In this document: positions 659 to 6,813 of the stretch, piece by piece
Layout of the letters: each line of letters starts with the position of its first letter
Numbering within the stretch: position 1 is the stretch's first letter
IMG/VR virus record: IMGVR_UViG_3300050821_018095
Coordinates: 1 to 29,125 of that record
DNA from: a virus
Length of the DNA stretch: 29,125 bases
Direction: 5' to 3' (one strand)
Program-made: the position numbers and the translations under genes
Notes under the pieces: model-generated
Seen by the model: only the letters and a program-made list of their open reading frames with translations
Database searches by the model: none
What the model was told of the DNA's origin: nothing

Positions 659-885
659 CCGGCCGCTGGGGCACCGACCGAGGCGAGACTCGCCGGTCCT
701 CCGCCGATTCGGCGCGCGCTCCGTTCGCGCCGACGGACGGAGGGCAGACCGAGTCGAGGAGACTCGGTCTGGAGCTTCGCGGCTTCTTCGGCCGCGGATC
801 CGGCCGCAGAAGGCCGAGCGACATAGCGAGAGAGCTGAGCGACGCGATGTCGGCGTCGGGACCGTTTCCGAGGAGGCAGACATGA
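655..885 (+). CDS. M[S/T]GR[F/W]G-tagged small protein 1 (76 aa)
   Basis: This gene starts at GTG in a GTGA overlap with the previous stop. It encodes MTGRWG followed by a low-complexity, Arg/Ser/Gly-rich, strongly basic chain without a recognisable domain. The first six residues are shared with ten other small genes in the window; the rest matches none of them. The shared start supports the GTG as the real initiation codon. Apart from the tag it looks disordered. Function unknown. Confidence 0.65.
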   Translation: MTGRWGTDRGETRRSSADSARAPFAPTDGGQTESRRLGLELRGFFGRGSGRRRPSDIARELSDAMSASGPFPRRQT

Positions 886-1106
886 CACCCGAGGAGGCCG
901 CGGTTCTCGCGAGAACTCTGGATCACAGGGCCACGAGAAGTGCTCTCTGCTGTCTCGGCGAGCCATTGTCGGCTGCTCGGGAGAGATTCATGTTCGGCGG
1001 CGGCTCGCTGATCGGCGGTGGTTACTTGACGACGAGCGTCGAGCTGGACGTGACGACGAGAGCCGGAACGTTTCGCGCTGGTCAGATTGTCGTGGTGATC
1101 GGGTGA
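882..1106 (+). CDS. Small hypothetical protein (74 aa)
   Basis: The ATG start overlaps the stop of the preceding tagged gene. The 74 residues begin with an acidic helical stretch (MTPEEAAVLARTL). They continue into a Gly-rich segment (MFGGGSLIGGGYL) and end in a probable beta-rich section. There are adjacent Cys residues (CC) near residue 25. No signal peptide or known domain is recognised. Context is the string of tiny genes between terminase and portal. Confidence 0.55.
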   Translation: MTPEEAAVLARTLDHRATRSALCCLGEPLSAARERFMFGGGSLIGGGYLTTSVELDVTTRAGTFRAGQIVVVIG

Positions 1107-1110
1107 AGAG

Positions 1111-1320
1111 ATGAGCGGAAGATTCGGACGAATATCTGCTGACTCATCTCGCAAATTTGTCGAAAAGTACGCCGGTTACAGCATCTACGATGATGACGGT
1201 GCGTATGTCGTCGAGGAAAGTGGCACTATTCGCGGCAAACCTGATGGCTACAGCAGCGTAGAGGACGCACGCAGAAAGATCGATCAGATGCTTGGTCGAC
1301 GTCCGGGAAAGTTCAGATGA
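1111..1320 (+). CDS. M[S/T]GR[F/W]G-tagged small protein 2 (69 aa)
   Basis: A 69-residue protein starting MSGRFG. After the tag comes a short Ser-rich linker, then about 50 residues with a likely beta-beta-alpha pattern (SIYDDDGAYVVEE, then YSSVEDARRKIDQML). A similar pattern of strands followed by an S-x-E-x-EA-type helix is seen in the tagged proteins at 1707 and 20519, so these may share a mini-domain. The 3' end overlaps the next tagged gene. Base composition is more AT-rich than the flanking genes, suggesting separate origin. Confidence 0.7.
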   Translation: MSGRFGRISADSSRKFVEKYAGYSIYDDDGAYVVEESGTIRGKPDGYSSVEDARRKIDQMLGRRPGKFR

Positions 1321-1505
1321 CCGGCCGCTGGGGCGGTCGCCCCGCCGAGGACGACCTGGAGTCGAGAATTCAGTCCGCCGTGCGCCTCTACGAGCGACCC
1401 GGCACGCCGGGCGAGCGCGACGCGGCGGCAGAGGCGCTGCGGAGAATGGGAGTGGATCCTGACAAGCTGGATCCTAGGAAGTTCATGAGAGGACTACGGT
1501 CATGA
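1317..1505 (+). CDS. M[S/T]GR[F/W]G-tagged small protein 3 (62 aa)
   Basis: The ATG overlaps the preceding stop. The 62-residue protein begins MTGRWGG and is then mostly helical and charged (EDDLESRIQSAVRLYE, then ERDAAAEALRRMGVDPDKL). It is soluble, with no signal peptide. Its first 20 bases closely resemble the start of the tagged gene at 655 (same ACC-GGC-CGC-TGG codons), so these two form a W-type subgroup. The stop overlaps the following membrane protein gene. Function unknown. Confidence 0.7.
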   Translation: MTGRWGGRPAEDDLESRIQSAVRLYERPGTPGERDAAAEALRRMGVDPDKLDPRKFMRGLRS

Positions 1506-1684
1506 CGAGAGGACTCATCTTCTGGGTGCTGATGCTGATCTGGTTCGTGTTCGCGCTGTTTCTCAACTTCGGCGGAGCGCAGCTCGGCATCGGCCACTAT
1601 GGCGGAATCGCGAACTCGTTTCTGGAGTTCGTGCTCTTCCTTCTTCTGGGATGGCAGGTGTACGGACCTCCGGTGCACGGATGA
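1502..1684 (+). CDS. Small membrane protein (60 aa)
   Basis: A 60-residue hydrophobic protein with two probable membrane helices (roughly residues 5-22 and 38-53) and short ends. It overlaps the preceding gene by ATGA. It could be a holin-like or other inner-membrane protein, but there is no adjacent lysin, so no lysis role can be claimed. Confidence 0.6.
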   Translation: MTRGLIFWVLMLIWFVFALFLNFGGAQLGIGHYGGIANSFLEFVLFLLLGWQVYGPPVHG

Positions 1685-1706
1685 GATCTCGGTTCTTTCG
1701 CTGGCG

Positions 1707-1902
1707 ATGAGTGGTAGGTTCGGTCAGGACGCTCGATACAGTGAGATCGCTCGCTACGGGCAAGATCGTAGTGGAGGAGGATCCCGACCGTCGAATCTAC
1801 TATGTGCGGCCACCGAACGAGCGACGTGTTCGTTTCTCATCCGAGACGGAGGCGAGGCACTACGCCAAGAGTCTCTACGAGATAATTGAACGATACCGAT
1901 GA
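1707..1902 (+). CDS. M[S/T]GR[F/W]G-tagged small protein 4, needs a +1 frameshift
   Basis: The ATG at 1707 opens a frame beginning MSGRFGQDAR, which fits the extended tag seen elsewhere (MSGRFG-x-DA). That frame continues into low-quality sequence, while the +1 frame carries a convincing C-terminal half ending at 1902. It contains RRIYYVRP, then VRFSSETEARHYAKSLYE, and resembles the IYYV...VPSESEAHAASRAL segment of the tagged protein at 20519. The two halves are therefore one gene split by a frame change between about 1735 and 1790. A GTG at 1711 could start the second frame alone, but would lack the tag. Either a recent indel, a sequencing error or programmed shifting explains it. The stop overlaps the portal start. 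Confidence 0.6.
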
Positions 1903-3698
1903 CGCGCTCGTCCGCCGCCGACGCAGACCTCTCCGTCCCAGCGCTGCTCGCCCGCGCGCGAGCGCGCCGAGGCGGGAGCGCTTCGCGTCTCGCGCACATC
2001 TCCGCGTCGATGCTCGCGCTCGCGCGTCAGCGTCTCACCCCCCGGTCCCCGCTGCCCGGCTCGCAGCACGATCCGTTCAAGCCCGCGACTCCGTTCCCGG
2101 GCGCGATACCGAGAGGTCACACTCTCGCGATGGACGAGAGTGTGACTTTCCAGGCCGAGTGGGCCGCCGCGTCCTACTCGGCGGGCGCCGCCGCCTTCTC
2201 CTCCGCGTGGCAGGAGGGGACCGTGTTCCCCGGCTATCCGTTTCTCGCGTCTCTGGCCCAGCGTCCCGAGTACCGACGCCTGAGCGAGGTGATCGGCACC
2301 GAGATGACGCGGCGCTGGATCCGGTTCGGGTCCTCCGGCGGCGACGACAAGACCGAGCGCATCGCGGAGCTGACCGACGAGCTCGACCGCCTCGAGACGC
2401 GCGATCGCTTCCGGGCGCTCGCCGAGATCGACGGATACTTCGGCCGCTCGCACCTGTATCTGGACACGGGATCCACCGACGACCGGGACGAGCTGCGAAC
2501 GCCGATAGGCGACGGGCGCGGACAGGTGAGCCGGGCGAAGTTCGGAGGTCGCAGGGGATTCCTCAGAGCTCTGAGATCGGTGGAGCCGTACTGGGTCTAT
2601 CCGACGAACTACGACTCGAACGATCCGCTGCGGGGCGCGTGGTACGAGCCCGAGCAGTGGTACGTGATGGGCAAGGAGGTGCACGCGTCGCGCCTTCTGC
2701 GCTTCGTCGGGCGCGAGGTGCCGGACATGCTGAAGCCGGCCTACAGCTTCGGCGGTCTGAGCATGAGCCAGATGGCGCTGCCGTACGTCAACAACTGGCT
2801 GCGCACGCGGCAGAGCGTGGCGGACATCGTGCACGCGTTCTCGGTCTTCGTGCTCGCGACGAACATGAGCGAGACGCTCGGGCCGGATGGGGATCAGCTC
2901 TTCGCGCGTCTCGAGCTCTTCAATCTATGCCGCGACAATCGCGGCGTGATGGCGATAGACAAGGACGCGGAGGCGTTCCAGAACGTGAGCGCGCCGCTGG
3001 GCGGGCTGCACGAGCTCCAGGCGCAGACGCAGGAGCACATGTCGAGCGTCTCTGGCATCCCGGTTGTGAAGCTGCTCGGCATTACTCCGTCCGGCCTGAA
3101 CGCCAGCAGCGACGGCGAGATGCGCGCGTTCTACGACTGGGTGCACGCCTTCCAGGAGAAGCTCTTCCGGCCGAACCTGACGCGCGTGATCGACTTCGCG
3201 ATGCTCTCGCTCTGGGGCGAGGTGGACCAGGACATCACGTTCGAGTTCGAGCCGCTCTGGGCGCTGGACGAGAAAGGCGAGGCCGAGGTGAACCAGATCA
3301 AGGCGACCACCGGCGCGGCCTTAGTCGAGGGCGGCATCGTGTCGCAGGAGGAGGAGCGCCGTCGCGTCGCGAGCGACCCGAGCTCCGGATACGACTCGCT
3401 GGACGCGGAGGCGCTGCCGGATCTTCGCGAGGAGGAGGAGGGCGGCCTGGTGCCGGAGGGCGGCGGACGCGTGTCCGCCGAGCTGGCGGGTGGTCGCGCC
3501 GAGAAGGAGGGCGAGATCGACGACCCGAGAGGTGGAACGCCGGCGGAGAGCGGGGGCGGCGAGGACGACGGCCCGCTGCACAGGAACTTTCTCAAGGGCA
3601 AGAATCCGCTGTCGCCTGATCACCTGAAGGGGAAGAACCCGTTGAAGAAGGACTTCCTGAAGAACCGGGTCGCAGAGAAAGAGGACGCAGACGCGTGA
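1899..3698 (+). CDS. Phage portal protein (DUF1073 type)
   Basis: The 599-residue portal forms the dodecameric ring at one capsid vertex through which DNA is packaged and ejected. Family signs are the middle and C-terminal core, including the SVSGIPVVKLLGITPSGLNA segment (about residues 383-402), followed by GEMRAFYDWV. This is typical of DUF1073 portals. An unusual N-terminal extension of about 80 residues is Arg/Ala/Ser-rich and probably disordered. After about residue 500 there is an acidic Gly/Glu-rich tail, ending in tandem copies of a LKGKNPL motif (about 562-588). It starts by ATGA overlap with the frameshifted tagged gene. Order after terminase fits. The tail repeats are outside the known core. 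Confidence 0.88.
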   Translation: MTRSSAADADLSVPALLARARARRGGSASRLAHISASMLALARQRLTPRSPLPGSQHDPFKPATPFPGAIPRGHTLAMDESVTFQAEWAAASYSAGAAAFSSAWQEGTVFPGYPFLASLAQRPEYRRLSEVIGTEMTRRWIRFGSSGGDDKTERIAELTDELDRLETRDRFRALAEIDGYFGRSHLYLDTGSTDDRDELRTPIGDGRGQVSRAKFGGRRGFLRALRSVEPYWVYPTNYDSNDPLRGAWYEPEQWYVMGKEVHASRLLRFVGREVPDMLKPAYSFGGLSMSQMALPYVNNWLRTRQSVADIVHAFSVFVLATNMSETLGPDGDQLFARLELFNLCRDNRGVMAIDKDAEAFQNVSAPLGGLHELQAQTQEHMSSVSGIPVVKLLGITPSGLNASSDGEMRAFYDWVHAFQEKLFRPNLTRVIDFAMLSLWGEVDQDITFEFEPLWALDEKGEAEVNQIKATTGAALVEGGIVSQEEERRRVASDPSSGYDSLDAEALPDLREEEEGGLVPEGGGRVSAELAGGRAEKEGEIDDPRGGTPAESGGGEDDGPLHRNFLKGKNPLSPDHLKGKNPLKKDFLKNRVAEKEDADA

Positions 3699-3727
3699 TC
3701 CACTCGCAGCGCAGATCGAGCTGGCAC

Positions 3728-3757
3728 GTCTGCTTCTTCGGAGACGAAGGAGCAGAC
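3728..3757 (+). promoter_or_regulatory. RNA hairpin that includes the ribosome binding site of the next gene
   Basis: Arms 3728-3740 and 3745-3757 pair over 13 positions (one G-U pair) around a GAGA tetraloop. The only good Shine-Dalgarno sequence for the ATG at 3763, AAGGAG at 3747-3752, lies inside the 3' arm. Folding would hide it, so the hairpin probably limits translation of the small coiled-coil gene relative to the portal. No T-run follows, so it is not a standard terminator. Confidence 0.55.
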
Positions 3758-3762
3758 TGAGA

Positions 3763-4053
3763 ATGCCGCCTCTCTTCGCCGGCGCCTCCGACGTCGCGCA
3801 GGGCATCGCGCGCCTCCGAGCTCGCGTGGCCGAGCGCAGCGCGGCGTCCGTGGTCAAGATGGAGCGCGCGTTCGTGGACTACGAGGATCGGCTGACGAAG
3901 GCAGAGGCGAAGCTCGCGGGCGAGCTCGATCGGCACGCTCTCGAGGCCGAGGGCGCCATGCAGGAGCTGACCAACGCGGGGGAGCAGGTCTTCAACGATT
4001 CGTCGACCGGCTCGTCGGTCGAGGGATCGCCCTTTCGTCGGGCAGCCGAGTGA
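3763..4053 (+). CDS. Small coiled-coil protein (96 aa)
   Basis: A 96-residue, mostly helical protein. Residues about 10-80 have heptad-like spacing of Ala/Leu/Val (GIARLRARVAERSAASV, then RLTKAEAKLAGELDRHAL), suggesting a coiled coil. The end is Ser/Thr/Gly-rich. It lies between the portal and the head morphogenesis gene, so a minor head or scaffold-associated role is possible but not shown. Its ribosome binding site is in the hairpin just upstream. Confidence 0.6.
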   Translation: MPPLFAGASDVAQGIARLRARVAERSAASVVKMERAFVDYEDRLTKAEAKLAGELDRHALEAEGAMQELTNAGEQVFNDSSTGSSVEGSPFRRAAE

Positions 4054-4054
4054 G

Positions 4055-4201
4055 ATGCGCGTGACCGAGCCCATGATCACCGCCGCTCTCGCCGCGCTGC
4101 GGCGAGAGATGCGCGAGGGCACGCCGGTCCACGACTACGACGGCCGCGTGCTGCGGCGCATAGTTAGGGACGTGTTGAGAGAAGCCCTGGGGCATGCGTG
4201 A
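4055..4201 (+). CDS. Very small hypothetical protein (48 aa)
   Basis: The ATG lies one base beyond the preceding stop. The 48 residues (starting MRVTEPMITAALAALRREMR) form a predicted helix, a short turn and a second basic helix (VLRRIVRDVLREALGHA). The stop overlaps the GTG start of the next gene (GTGA), which supports it as a real, coupled gene despite its size. No family recognised. Confidence 0.5.
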   Translation: MRVTEPMITAALAALRREMREGTPVHDYDGRVLRRIVRDVLREALGHA

Positions 4202-4392
4202 GCGACAAGAGGCTGGAGGCGCTGGACGGAGCCTACGCGGCGCACGTCGCGAGTATATTCGAAGTTCTGTGCGTCTCGCTCGGCAGCGGAACGGGGGACA
4301 CCGCGAAGATGGCGCCGGAGCGATTCAGGCGGGCGCTCGCGAACGCGGACCGAGCGAGAGCGATCGCGGCGGAGGCGATGGAGAACAAGTGA
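4198..4392 (+). CDS. Small hypothetical helical protein (64 aa)
   Basis: It starts at GTG in a GTGA overlap and ends in another GTGA overlap. The 64 residues are largely helical and Ala-rich (FRRALANADRARAIAAEAME). One Cys is present, with no membrane segment and no tag hexapeptide. It looks like the small helical proteins common between portal and morphogenesis genes of alphaproteobacterial phages. Function unknown. Confidence 0.6.
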   Translation: MSDKRLEALDGAYAAHVASIFEVLCVSLGSGTGDTAKMAPERFRRALANADRARAIAAEAMENK

Positions 4393-4613
4393 TCAGCGGT
4401 GTGCCCATGATCCCCGTGATCTCCTCCAATGTCGAGGCTCTCGGCCACGACGAGGCGGGACGGAGACTGATAGTCAAGTACAGAGGCGGCGTGCTCTGGG
4501 AGTACGACGGGGTGGACCGGGCGAAAGTGGACGCGCTGCTGGCGGCGGACTCGGTCGGGAGTTTTCTGCATCGGGAGATCAGGGGGAAACACGACGGGAG
4601 ACGTGTCCAATGA
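4389..4613 (+). CDS. KTSC domain protein (74 aa)
   Basis: The 74-residue product matches the small KTSC domain found in many phage and bacterial proteins. It has SSNVEALGHDEAGRRLIVKY, then GGVLWEYDGV, then a helix and the ending SVGSFLHREIRGKH, equivalent to the 'S.GsyfN..Ir' end of the family. KTSC domains are small beta-rich folds, sometimes fused to other proteins, with no settled function. The start is GTG at 4389 (a later ATG at 4407 is possible). Its 3' end forms the left arm of the hairpin around the next start codon. Confidence 0.75.
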   Translation: MISGVPMIPVISSNVEALGHDEAGRRLIVKYRGGVLWEYDGVDRAKVDALLAADSVGSFLHREIRGKHDGRRVQ

Positions 4614-4621
4614 CACGTCTC
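4598..4621 (+). promoter_or_regulatory. Perfect hairpin over the start codon of the head morphogenesis gene
   Basis: GAGACGTGTC (4598-4607) and GACACGTCTC (4612-4621) are perfect 10-base inverted repeats around a 4-base loop. The loop contains the A and T of the ATG at 4610, and the left arm takes part of the only Shine-Dalgarno-like run (GGGAG, 4596-4600). In RNA this would mask both ribosome binding site and start codon, a layout used in translational operators. Whether a protein binds it is unknown. Confidence 0.55.
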
Positions 4622-6418
4622 GGCAAGAACGACCGCGTCCTCGGCTCCGTCCGCCCCTGCTGCGGCACCGAGGCCGAGTACCGACGCCGTCTGCGCCTCC
4701 TGATCGACGATCTGCACGCGAGCGTGACCTACTGGATCCGCGCCGCGTGGCGCGCGAACGAGCCGGAGCTGCTGGACTCCATAGAGGAGATGCCGGAGGG
4801 CAGGCTCGCTTTCGACGCGCAAGTTTCACAGAGGCCGGAAGGCCACCCCGACGACTCCGCTGGGCTATCGGGCCTGAGGGGCGGACGACAGGGGCAGATT
4901 AGGCAGGCCCGACAGAGCGGGGGGACAACGAGGCCCCCGAGCCCCCCTCTCGAAGATTCGGCGGCGCCCCCCGGTCTCGCGCTCGATGCGATTCCGGCCG
5001 CCGCCCTCCAGGCCGCGATCCGCAGGCTGACGCGCCGTTGGCAGCGCAACTTCAACGCGGCGGCCGAGGATCTGGCAGATTGGTTCGGGCAGAGCGTGGG
5101 AAAGCGAAGCGACCGAGTGCTCGCTTCGCATCTCAAGAAGGCCGGCGTCACCGTCAAGTTCCGGTTGTCCCGTGCTCAACGCGACGTGCTCCGCGCCACG
5201 ATCGAGCAGAACGTTTCGCTCATTCGCTCGATACCGCAGAAGTATCTCCACGACGTGGAGGGCATGGTCATGCGCAGCGTGCAGACGGGGCGGGACCTGG
5301 GGCAGCTCACCAAGTCCCTGGAGCGCACGTACAAGACGACGAGGAAGCGCGCCGCGTTCATCGCGCGCGACCAGTCGAACAAGGCTACGTCCGCCTTGAA
5401 CCGCTCGCGCCTGATCGAGCTCGGCATCTCCGAGGCGATCTGGGTTCATAGTCACGCCGGCAAGGTGCCGAGGCCGACGCATCTGAAGATGCACGGCAAG
5501 AAGTTCGACGTCGCGGTCGGCATGTGGGATCCGGCCGAGGGCGAGCACGTTCACCCTGGCGAACTCATCAACTGTTTTCCTGGGTCAACTGATATACAGA
5601 TCGCTGACGGTGTGGAAAAAGCGTATCGGCATTGGTACAGCGGTGATCTGACCGAGCTTGTTACGAACACGGGTAAAACTGTGCGAGTTACACCTAATCA
5701 CCCGATTCTTACGCCGAGAGGGTGGGTCGCTGCAGGTCTTTTTGATGAGGGCGACGATATCGTCGAGATTGCCGATGAGGTCTTTCTTTCTGTGAAAGAT
5801 AACGCAGATCAGCGTGTACCCACTCTTGAAAAGATATTTGATGCGACGCTGCGAGCCGGGACCCTCAGGATGGAAGTTGCGCGGAGTGTACAGTTCCACG
5901 GCGACGGTTCCGGCAGCCATGTCGATATTGTATCTGCCGCACGGGCGCTGTCCTTCGGGATTGAGTCCCTCTTGTCGAAGGGCCGTTTCCATCTCGATCT
6001 CGCCGAGTCCGACAATGCGGCATTTTCTCTGAGCCTTGCGACGCATCTCTGTCGCCGAAGCCTTGGCACCGCGTCTCGCTTCATTCGCGGCCTTGGTAAG
6101 GCGCTGACGCCCCTTCTTACCTTCCCTCTTCATGCGCAAGATGTTTGCTTCGCTTCTACCTCGCAGTTTTCCACCAGCCTTCTTGATGCGCCTCTCGATG
6201 ACAGGTCTATTTGTATTGAACTCTTCAGCGAGAGCGAGGAGACTCGTTCCTCTCTCATGCTTCCTACGAAGCATGCGACAATATCTCGGATTCATCGGAA
6301 GGTATTTTCTGGCCACGTGTTTAATCTCCAGACTCGTGGTGGATGGTATGTATGCAATGGCATTGTAGCGCATAATTGCCGTTGCACAAGCCGCGCCGTC
6401 GTTCCGGGCTTCGCGTGA
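4610..6418 (+). CDS. Head morphogenesis protein (SPP1 gp7/Mu F-like) with in-frame intein
   Basis: A 602-residue precursor. The N-extein (1-321) is a phage minor head protein. It has a Pro/Gly-rich linker near 90-120, then a helical core, then the family end-motif around residues 270-321 (FIARDQSNKATSALNRSRL, RPTHLKMHGK, HPGELIN). The C-extein (590-602) begins CRCTSRAV. Joining 321 to 590 restores the classic HPGELINCRC motif, so splicing must rebuild the domain's most conserved, metal-site-like Cys segment. Mature length would be about 334 residues, normal for the family. Such proteins sit on the portal and assist DNA entry or capsid assembly. Its translation start is inside a hairpin. Confidence 0.88.
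   Translation: MTRLGKNDRVLGSVRPCCGTEAEYRRRLRLLIDDLHASVTYWIRAAWRANEPELLDSIEEMPEGRLAFDAQVSQRPEGHPDDSAGLSGLRGGRQGQIRQARQSGGTTRPPSPPLEDSAAPPGLALDAIPAAALQAAIRRLTRRWQRNFNAAAEDLADWFGQSVGKRSDRVLASHLKKAGVTVKFRLSRAQRDVLRATIEQNVSLIRSIPQKYLHDVEGMVMRSVQTGRDLGQLTKSLERTYKTTRKRAAFIARDQSNKATSALNRSRLIELGISEAIWVHSHAGKVPRPTHLKMHGKKFDVAVGMWDPAEGEHVHPGELINCFPGSTDIQIADGVEKAYRHWYSGDLTELVTNTGKTVRVTPNHPILTPRGWVAAGLFDEGDDIVEIADEVFLSVKDNADQRVPTLEKIFDATLRAGTLRMEVARSVQFHGDGSGSHVDIVSAARALSFGIESLLSKGRFHLDLAESDNAAFSLSLATHLCRRSLGTASRFIRGLGKALTPLLTFPLHAQDVCFASTSQFSTSLLDAPLDDRSICIELFSESEETRSSLMLPTKHATISRIHRKVFSGHVFNLQTRGGWYVCNGIVAHNCRCTSRAVVPGFA
5573..6376 (+). mobile_element. Intein in the head morphogenesis gene (268 aa)
   Basis: The intein begins at Cys (residue 322 of the precursor; CFPGSTDIQIADG) and ends HN before the +1 Cys. 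Splicing blocks are clear: block A at the start, block B TPNHPILTPRGWV, block F GHVFNLQTRGGWYVCNG, block G IVAHN followed by C. All nucleophiles (C1, block-B His, terminal His-Asn, C+1) are present, so it should be active. No LAGLIDADG or HNH domain is seen in the sense frame. The centre contains FHGDG...VDIV, which I associate, from memory, with other phage inteins. It is AT-richer than the surrounding exteins, a sign of transfer. The opposite strand codes for an endonuclease. Confidence 0.9.
5585..6295 (-). CDS. Vsr-like homing endonuclease encoded antisense within the intein
   Basis: On the minus strand a frame stays open across almost the whole intein (6373 down to 5585); the ATG at 6295 gives 236 residues and is the likeliest start. 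The order of parts is that of HTH-plus-nuclease homing enzymes. First is a resolvase-like helix-turn-helix (GTSLLALAEEFNTNRPVIER, then RIKKAGGKLRGRSEAN). A basic helical linker follows (KGRQRLTKAANEARRGAK). Then comes a Vsr/PD-(D/E)XK-like core with GEIEMETALRQEGL, GRYNIDMAAGTVAVEL, a downstream NFH, and RRIKYLFKSGYTLICVIF. A C-terminal segment with PPSRRKNRVIRC ends it. Candidate catalytic residues are the Glu in GEIE, the Asp in NID, the Glu in VAVE and the His in NFH. It is the only minus-strand gene I support here. No clear ribosome binding site was found. Confidence 0.78.
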   Translation of the reverse strand: MNPRYCRMLRRKHERGTSLLALAEEFNTNRPVIERRIKKAGGKLRGRSEANILRMKREGKKGRQRLTKAANEARRGAKASATEMRRKAQRKCRIVGLGEIEMETALRQEGLNPEGQRPCGRYNIDMAAGTVAVELYTPRNFHPEGPGSQRRIKYLFKSGYTLICVIFHRKKDLIGNLDDIVALIKKTCSDPPSRRKNRVIRCNSHSFTRVRNKLGQITAVPMPIRFFHTVSDLYIS

Positions 6419-6501
6419 GTTTCTTCAGACACGGGCACCGCGTCGTTCTCTTCGTCGACGGTGTCGGCGTTCTTCTCGACCAGCAGCAGAGGACTTGTCT
6501 C

Positions 6502-6813
6502 ATGACAACCGTGACAGTAGGCCACACGATCGCGATGTCGATCGTCTATCTCGACCAGAACGGCAACCCCATGCTGACGACGCCGAAGGCCGACACGGCT
6601 CCGACGTGGTCGAACACCACGCCGGCGACCGAGACGCTGAAGCCGTCGGCCGACGGGCTGACGTGCGAGGCGGACGCCGTGGCGGCCGGCAGCGACGTGG
6701 TCAGTCTGAGCATCTCGGTCGGCGGCGCGGCATTTGCGGCCTCGCTGTCGGTCACGGTCGAGGCAGCGCCGCAGATTCTCACGTCGGTGCAGATCGCGGC
6801 GACCGTGTCGTAG
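6502..6813 (+). CDS. Small Ig-like domain phage protein (103 aa)
   Basis: A 103-residue, beta-rich protein with an Ig-like (Big_2 style) pattern. It has YLDQNGNPM, then WSNTTPATETLKPSADGLTC, then VVSLSISVGGAAFAASLSVTV, and a C-terminal strand. Such single-domain proteins are common near capsid genes of alphaproteobacterial phages and could decorate the head; that role is inferred. The true start is the ATG at 6502, because the frame upstream overlaps the end of the intein gene and lacks similarity. A strong hairpin pair follows the stop. Confidence 0.7.
   Translation: MTTVTVGHTIAMSIVYLDQNGNPMLTTPKADTAPTWSNTTPATETLKPSADGLTCEADAVAAGSDVVSLSISVGGAAFAASLSVTVEAAPQILTSVQIAATVS

Follow-up and report, generated by a model that had tools for sequence, protein, structure and literature searches.

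A phage head-gene intein with a putative homing endonuclease gene written through it on the opposite strand

The window analysed here, a viral record of 29,125 bases (IMGVR_UViG_3300050821_018095, positions 1 to 29,125), carries in its MuF-like head morphogenesis gene what we take, with a probability of roughly 0.88, to be a mobile intein through which a separate gene, that of its homing endonuclease, runs on the other strand; expression of this enzyme, its DNA cleavage and cut site, and the splicing of the intein enter this reading as predictions. According to the mechanism we propose, translation of the sense strand would yield a MuF precursor from which the intein would excise itself by splicing. 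Transcription of the other strand, in many relatives from a putative promoter located within the C-terminal splicing blocks, would provide the endonuclease with its own mRNA, whose own Shine-Dalgarno sequence and start codon would lie opposite block F and whose product would end opposite block A. MuF alleles that lack the intein would then presumably be cleaved by the nuclease at their NCRC codons and acquire a copy of the intein during repair. Such an arrangement is feasible because the three codons that turn into stops when reverse-complemented, TTA, CTA and TCA, always have synonyms, so that the intein frame can stay open even with an enzyme encoded antisense to it. The most conservative reading of the data is that of a genuine, conserved antisense nuclease gene in a genuine intein.

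The intein and the gene opposite it

The MuF-like gene (SPP1 gp7/Mu F type; 4610..6418, plus strand) matches PF04233 within its extein (Pfam, E=7.8e-10) as well as phrog_324 (E=3.8e-69), and is split by the intein into an N-extein (4610-5572) and a C-extein (6377-6418). The intein itself (5573..6376, plus strand; 268 aa, Cys1 to Asn268) is open and in frame with its host gene, and displays Cys1, block B TPNHPILTPRGWV (TPNH), block F GHVFNL and the terminal HN, followed by Cys+1 (6377-6379) as the first C-extein residue; its C-terminal splicing blocks, F (VFNL) and G (GIVAHN), occupy positions 6317..6376. PF14890 (Intein_splicing, Pfam) covers intein residues 11-268 with E=1.8e-6, below the gathering cut-off, and TIGR01445 (intein_Nterm) is matched with E=1.3e-4, likewise below its cut-off. 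In the AF2 model of the sense product, blocks A-B and F-G reach a pLDDT of about 95 and nearly all of residues 129-227 fall below 50, i.e. a mostly disordered middle is predicted; a Foldseek search with this model returned intein splicing domains as its top matches, headed by the Mtu RecA intein. Motifs and predicted fold thus bear out the sequence-only reading, which had taken 5573-6376 for an intact intein, and confirm the segment as an intein in a MuF-like head gene that would be expected to splice. Its middle yielded no Pfam endonuclease domain, and it is therefore not an intein of the kind that contains its endonuclease in frame. Could it nevertheless be a passive wrapper around a real antisense gene, its own splicing lost? 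The sub-threshold PF14890 match and the predicted disorder of the middle would suit that idea, but Cys1, the block B His (H43) and N268 are invariant across 45 intein sequences, blocks A and F-G accumulate substitutions of the sense type (see below), and the host is a head gene, which is expected to be essential; we consider loss of splicing very unlikely.

On the minus strand, the 262-codon frame described earlier (6373-5585) is indeed present, but the start that it had been assigned, ATG 6373, does not stand, since relatives point to GTG 6316 instead. As delimited by a start and stop conserved in relatives, the putative homing endonuclease gene (5585..6316, minus strand) runs from GTG 6316 to TGA 5587-5585 and would encode 243 aa. 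It fills almost the whole intein, beginning opposite block F and ending opposite block A. It is in codon-for-codon register with the intein, each of its codons being the exact reverse complement of a sense codon, so that position 1 of the sense codon pairs with position 3 of the antisense one.

The AF2 model of the minus-strand protein has a mean pLDDT of 87.7 and a pTM of 0.67, and contains helices at residues 10-21, 26-32 and 37-46, in agreement with the helix-turn-helix (HTH) that had been claimed from the letters alone; this region (residues 10-43; 6188..6289, minus strand) matches HTH families of Pfam in most relatives. The further claim of a Vsr-like core was also upheld, although the window protein by itself has no Pfam match, so that its class is assigned from the family profile and from the fold: the profile matched I-Bth0305I (3r3p) with E=6.4e-7, as well as 3hrl, and Foldseek placed 3hrl first and 3r3p third, both with a probability of 1.00, albeit with modest E-values (2.5e-3 and 5.5e-3). 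In addition, 40 of the 56 family members match MTES_1575. The PD-(D/E)XK core spans residues 106-196 (5729..6001, minus strand) and includes E106 (6001-5999), the motif YNID with D132 (5923-5921) and the motif VAVE with E141 (5896-5894). In the alignment of 56 sequences, Y129, D132 and E141 are invariant, E106 is kept in over 90%, and N130, A139 and V140 are, like E106, nearly invariant. The C-terminal tail carries a VIRG/VIRC motif and lies opposite block B. Taken together, alignment and model support an antisense product composed of an HTH and a Vsr-like PD-(D/E)XK nuclease, which would be catalytically active.

The DNA of blocks F and G appears to double as the start region of this gene. 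A Shine-Dalgarno-like GGAG (6329-6326, minus strand) lies inside block F, and a GAGG or GGAG box closely precedes the start in most relatives; the block F Leu codon that relates to this box is CTC in 43 of 53 loci, compared with 23% in exteins. The GTG start codon (6314..6316, minus strand) is the complement of the block F His codon CAC, and across loci the sense residue at this place is either His (CAT in 47, CAC in 6) or, in two loci, Gln (CAA), these three codons being the complements of the start codons ATG, GTG and TTG; one of them is found in most loci. A TTGACA-17/18-TATAAT element lies antisense over blocks G and F, with all 12 of 12 hexamer bases in seven relatives, and antisense promoter scores of at least 10 occur in 27% of loci versus 0.25% of control windows. 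One relative (L032) has the layout TTGACA-17-TATAAT, 26 nt, ATG, with TGGAGG in between, and a second (L072) is laid out identically. These signals suggest that the splicing blocks serve the antisense gene as Shine-Dalgarno box, start codon and, in many relatives, promoter, from which it would be expressed. In the window, positions 6317-6420 contain no strong antisense promoter (score 6 against the sigma-70 consensus), and GGAG and GTG are kept despite the weak score. It is conceivable that the lack of a strong promoter marks a decaying system, in which an enzyme that was once active is now inherited only vertically; we find this unlikely, if still worth bearing in mind, given that the frame, start, Shine-Dalgarno box and catalytic residues are all intact.

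Distribution and mobility of the family

The sequence-only reading would have fallen had the minus-strand protein lacked homologs, or had relatives carried stops in one of the two frames; both conditions were checked, and neither refuted it. A tblastn search with this protein retrieved 120 phage records (best E=2e-35), with hosts including Klebsiella, Edwardsiella, Salmonella, Pseudomonas, Vibrio, Aggregatibacter and Gordonia. We examined 117 loci (about 77 non-redundant) from phage records and from viral and bacterial contigs; all were searched for with the antisense protein, the presence of a sense ORF not being a condition, and in 117/117 an opposite-strand ORF spans 100% of the endonuclease in the same register. 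These ORFs carry intein blocks wherever the contig is long enough, and a single contiguous sense ORF runs across the endonuclease in every locus, as opposed to the layout of a split intein or fractured gene, with its free-standing endonuclease gene between the two halves. Weaker similarity extends to Kagunavirus KMB36 and Idiomarinaceae phage 1N2-2, whose enzyme is also antisense. In 398 Pseudomonadota genomes, two members were complete, each of them antisense, and other matches were short domains of the DUF559 type without the tail; full-length free-standing homologs were not found. When viral contigs were searched by pattern with the window enzyme as the single query, no matches resulted, and searches by subgroup did find loci. 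The antisense-endonuclease intein is thus a widespread family of well over a hundred phage sequences. The annotation of the first 19 phage loci retrieved lists the MuF (or other host) gene alone and omits the antisense one, which implies that standard gene callers miss such genes.

Family members differ in where they sit. Apart from MuF, their exteins resemble a terminase large subunit (weakly), a dCMP deaminase and an XkdF-like protease (weakly). In Virus Rctr197k (KX853510; L015), the gene with the dCMP deaminase extein (PF00383) is annotated as head morphogenesis, probably because the intein is shared. In Escherichia phage vB-Eco-KMB36 (L149) a related intein occupies a second MuF position, after TSTT and not before NCRS, and in two loci (L102 and L103) one sense ORF, 784-6546, holds two antisense Vsr-like frames, apparently in two inteins.

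Are these inteins mobile? The joined exteins of Salmonella phage BPS11Q3 are covered to at least 80% in one place in 304 of 367 Salmonella and E. coli phage records, and such single unbroken matches, among the matches listed, mean that those records are intein-free. Moreover, the inteins of E. coli phage Snoke and BPS11Q3 are 95% identical, as against 65% for their N-exteins and 83% for their C-exteins. Intein-free alleles, together with inteins far more alike than the exteins around them, indicate mobility in these relatives, from which we infer that the window intein is mobile as well. The antisense protein might instead be a DNA-binding regulator, or a nuclease directed against competitor phages, with no part in intein homing, a proposal that could draw on its HTH and on a cleavage target that is so far a prediction. 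However, its PD-(D/E)XK residues are invariant, full-length members reside only in inteins, and the intein is patchily distributed at one and the same site and has moved between phages with diverged exteins, all of which leaves such a role improbable.

Selection on the two strands

If both strands are genes, substitutions should betray it, and a test of changes in both frames had been suggested at the outset. Codons were compared one by one within groups of relatives, some of which share members. Sense position 3 takes most of the substitutions in exteins, block A and blocks F-G, whereas the maximum in the intein middle lies at sense position 1, which is position 3 of the antisense codon; the ratio of position 1 to position 3 is 1.2-2.5 there in every group versus 0.08-0.7 in N-exteins. 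Single-base codon differences that are silent in the antisense frame only make up 64% in the middle and 4.8% in exteins, and those silent in the sense frame only 17% and 74%, respectively. Among these differences, antisense stops arose 68 times in exteins and never in the middle. A separate tally of antisense stops across nuclease regions is zero by construction; its unbiased counterpart is the choice of Leu and Ser codons in the nuclease frames, where TTA or CTA, which would stop the intein frame, accounts for 0 of 1781 Leu codons and TCA, which would do the same, for 0 of 1577 Ser codons. The relatives thus show antisense coding selection in the intein middle.

These data bear directly on the suspicion that the minus-strand frame is a chance ORF, a mere shadow of conserved intein sequence. 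A conserved sense frame does, in this register, force some conservation on the opposite strand, and GC-rich DNA often keeps the opposite frame open; judged by the rate in its own exteins, the window taken alone had a chance of about 0.5 of an open frame. Yet it is the antisense frame, not the sense one, in which changes in the middle are silent; the antisense model attains its mean pLDDT of 87.7 where most of sense residues 129-227 stay below 50; Shine-Dalgarno box, start and promoters are conserved; and AT-rich relatives, such as Aaphi23, retain the frame. We regard a chance ORF as practically negligible in probability, the flip in codon position, seen in independent groups, having refuted it.

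The two genes do not share the overlap evenly. Block A is constrained in the sense frame only, most of the middle in the antisense frame only, with the sense frame just kept open there, and double constraint concentrates at block B, at the nuclease active site and in the C-terminal blocks with the antisense start signals. The earlier proposal that the endonuclease overlaps the splicing domain, block B included, stands, the stretch through block B being under two-frame constraint, with the refinement that double constraint is not uniform along the overlap. Block B TPNHP (5690..5704, plus strand) is complementary to antisense RVIRC, the VIRG/VIRC motif, and over 8 groups 5 changes fall in the TPNHPx bin, whereas an extein bin collects roughly 40-60. 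Totals are low throughout the stretch that begins 24 codons ahead of block B and closes 11 codons past it, and constraint acts on both positions there. Within block B, bases that are silent in the sense frame keep antisense VIR(G/C), with CCC in 1/43, ACG in 1/43 and AAT in 31/43. At the active site, sense FHGD (5894..5905, plus strand), conserved on both strands, lies opposite VAVE, whose Ala is encoded by GCC in 81/84 cases (42% elsewhere in the same genes) and whose second Val by GTG in 75/80 (16% elsewhere in the same genes), a skew which argues that sense FHGD is also selected; p-values for such codon choices are inflated by kinship of the loci, though many loci are just 25-35% identical in protein. 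A longer sense stretch opposite the active site, DFHGDG...VDIV (window 5890-5935, plus strand; A6 consensus), is conserved beyond antisense demands.

Recurrence, precedents and significance

A second enzyme class occurs in the same arrangement. In Gordonia phage Nordenberg (L150), where the same MuF site is taken by a different intein, an antisense LAGLIDADG-type enzyme is encoded in the same register (2486-3196 of that locus, minus strand), with the motif AAFIDGEG and matches to phrog_5046 (E=3.6e-15) and I-MsoI (E=6e-4). Between Nordenberg and Barsten, differences at sense positions 1/2/3 number 43/4/10 in the middle and 3/1/23 in the N-extein, showing antisense selection here too. Given that this enzyme is unrelated to the Vsr-like one, the antisense-in-intein architecture appears to have evolved more than once. 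We think it likely that these inteins form a recurrent mobile class, in which an autonomous antisense endonuclease gene is overprinted on the intein with embedded promoter, Shine-Dalgarno box and start codon, in which constraint acts on both strands at block B and the active site, and which arose at least two times, with Vsr-like and with LAGLIDADG enzymes, because the codon-aligned register lets any enzyme be written without closing the intein frame.

How does this class compare with known systems? Inteins with in-frame endonucleases, such as PI-MtuI, PI-PfuI and PI-PkoII, are alike in their splicing blocks, in occupying a conserved site of an important gene and in holding the endonuclease within the intein; here, by contrast, the endonuclease lies outside the sense polypeptide, as an antisense gene with start signals of its own. 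With I-Bth0305I (3r3p) the antisense family shares the Vsr-like PD-(D/E)XK core and a tie to phage introns and inteins, but it adds the N-terminal HTH and the C-terminal VIRG tail, and whereas Vsr-like homing endonucleases are known as free-standing or intron-borne enzymes, here they are always antisense in a contiguous intein. Dassa and colleagues reportedly described, in 2009, a fractured-gene family of Vsr-like homing endonucleases. Antisense homing endonuclease genes are known in nuclear group I introns, where I-DsqI is likewise antisense to its host gene and has its own transcript but sits in a loop of ribozyme RNA, so that the same bases encode no second protein (PMC9548176). In the ShiLan domain, a hidden, out-of-frame HNH endonuclease of a phage methylase, the homing enzyme similarly overlaps an open host frame of a phage gene, but on the same strand in a shifted frame, and its authors detected no splicing element (PMC11855218). 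Our literature search brought up no account of an intein with an antisense endonuclease, and priority is uncertain, as a preprint on actinobacteriophage inteins of 'non-canonical architecture' may overlap (Gosselin et al. 2025; bioRxiv 10.1101/2025.01.02.630785).

What is the significance of placing the enzyme on the other strand? In such an intein, expression of the endonuclease would be uncoupled from translation of the host gene. One and the same segment would serve protein splicing from one strand and DNA cutting from the other, with regulatory signals on top, which makes it a testable case of antisense overprinting, and avoidance of TTA, CTA and TCA offers a route by which a large second protein may be written antisense to a first. 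The architecture thereby bears on the question of how overlapping genes originate and on that of how inteins acquire and retain their endonucleases.
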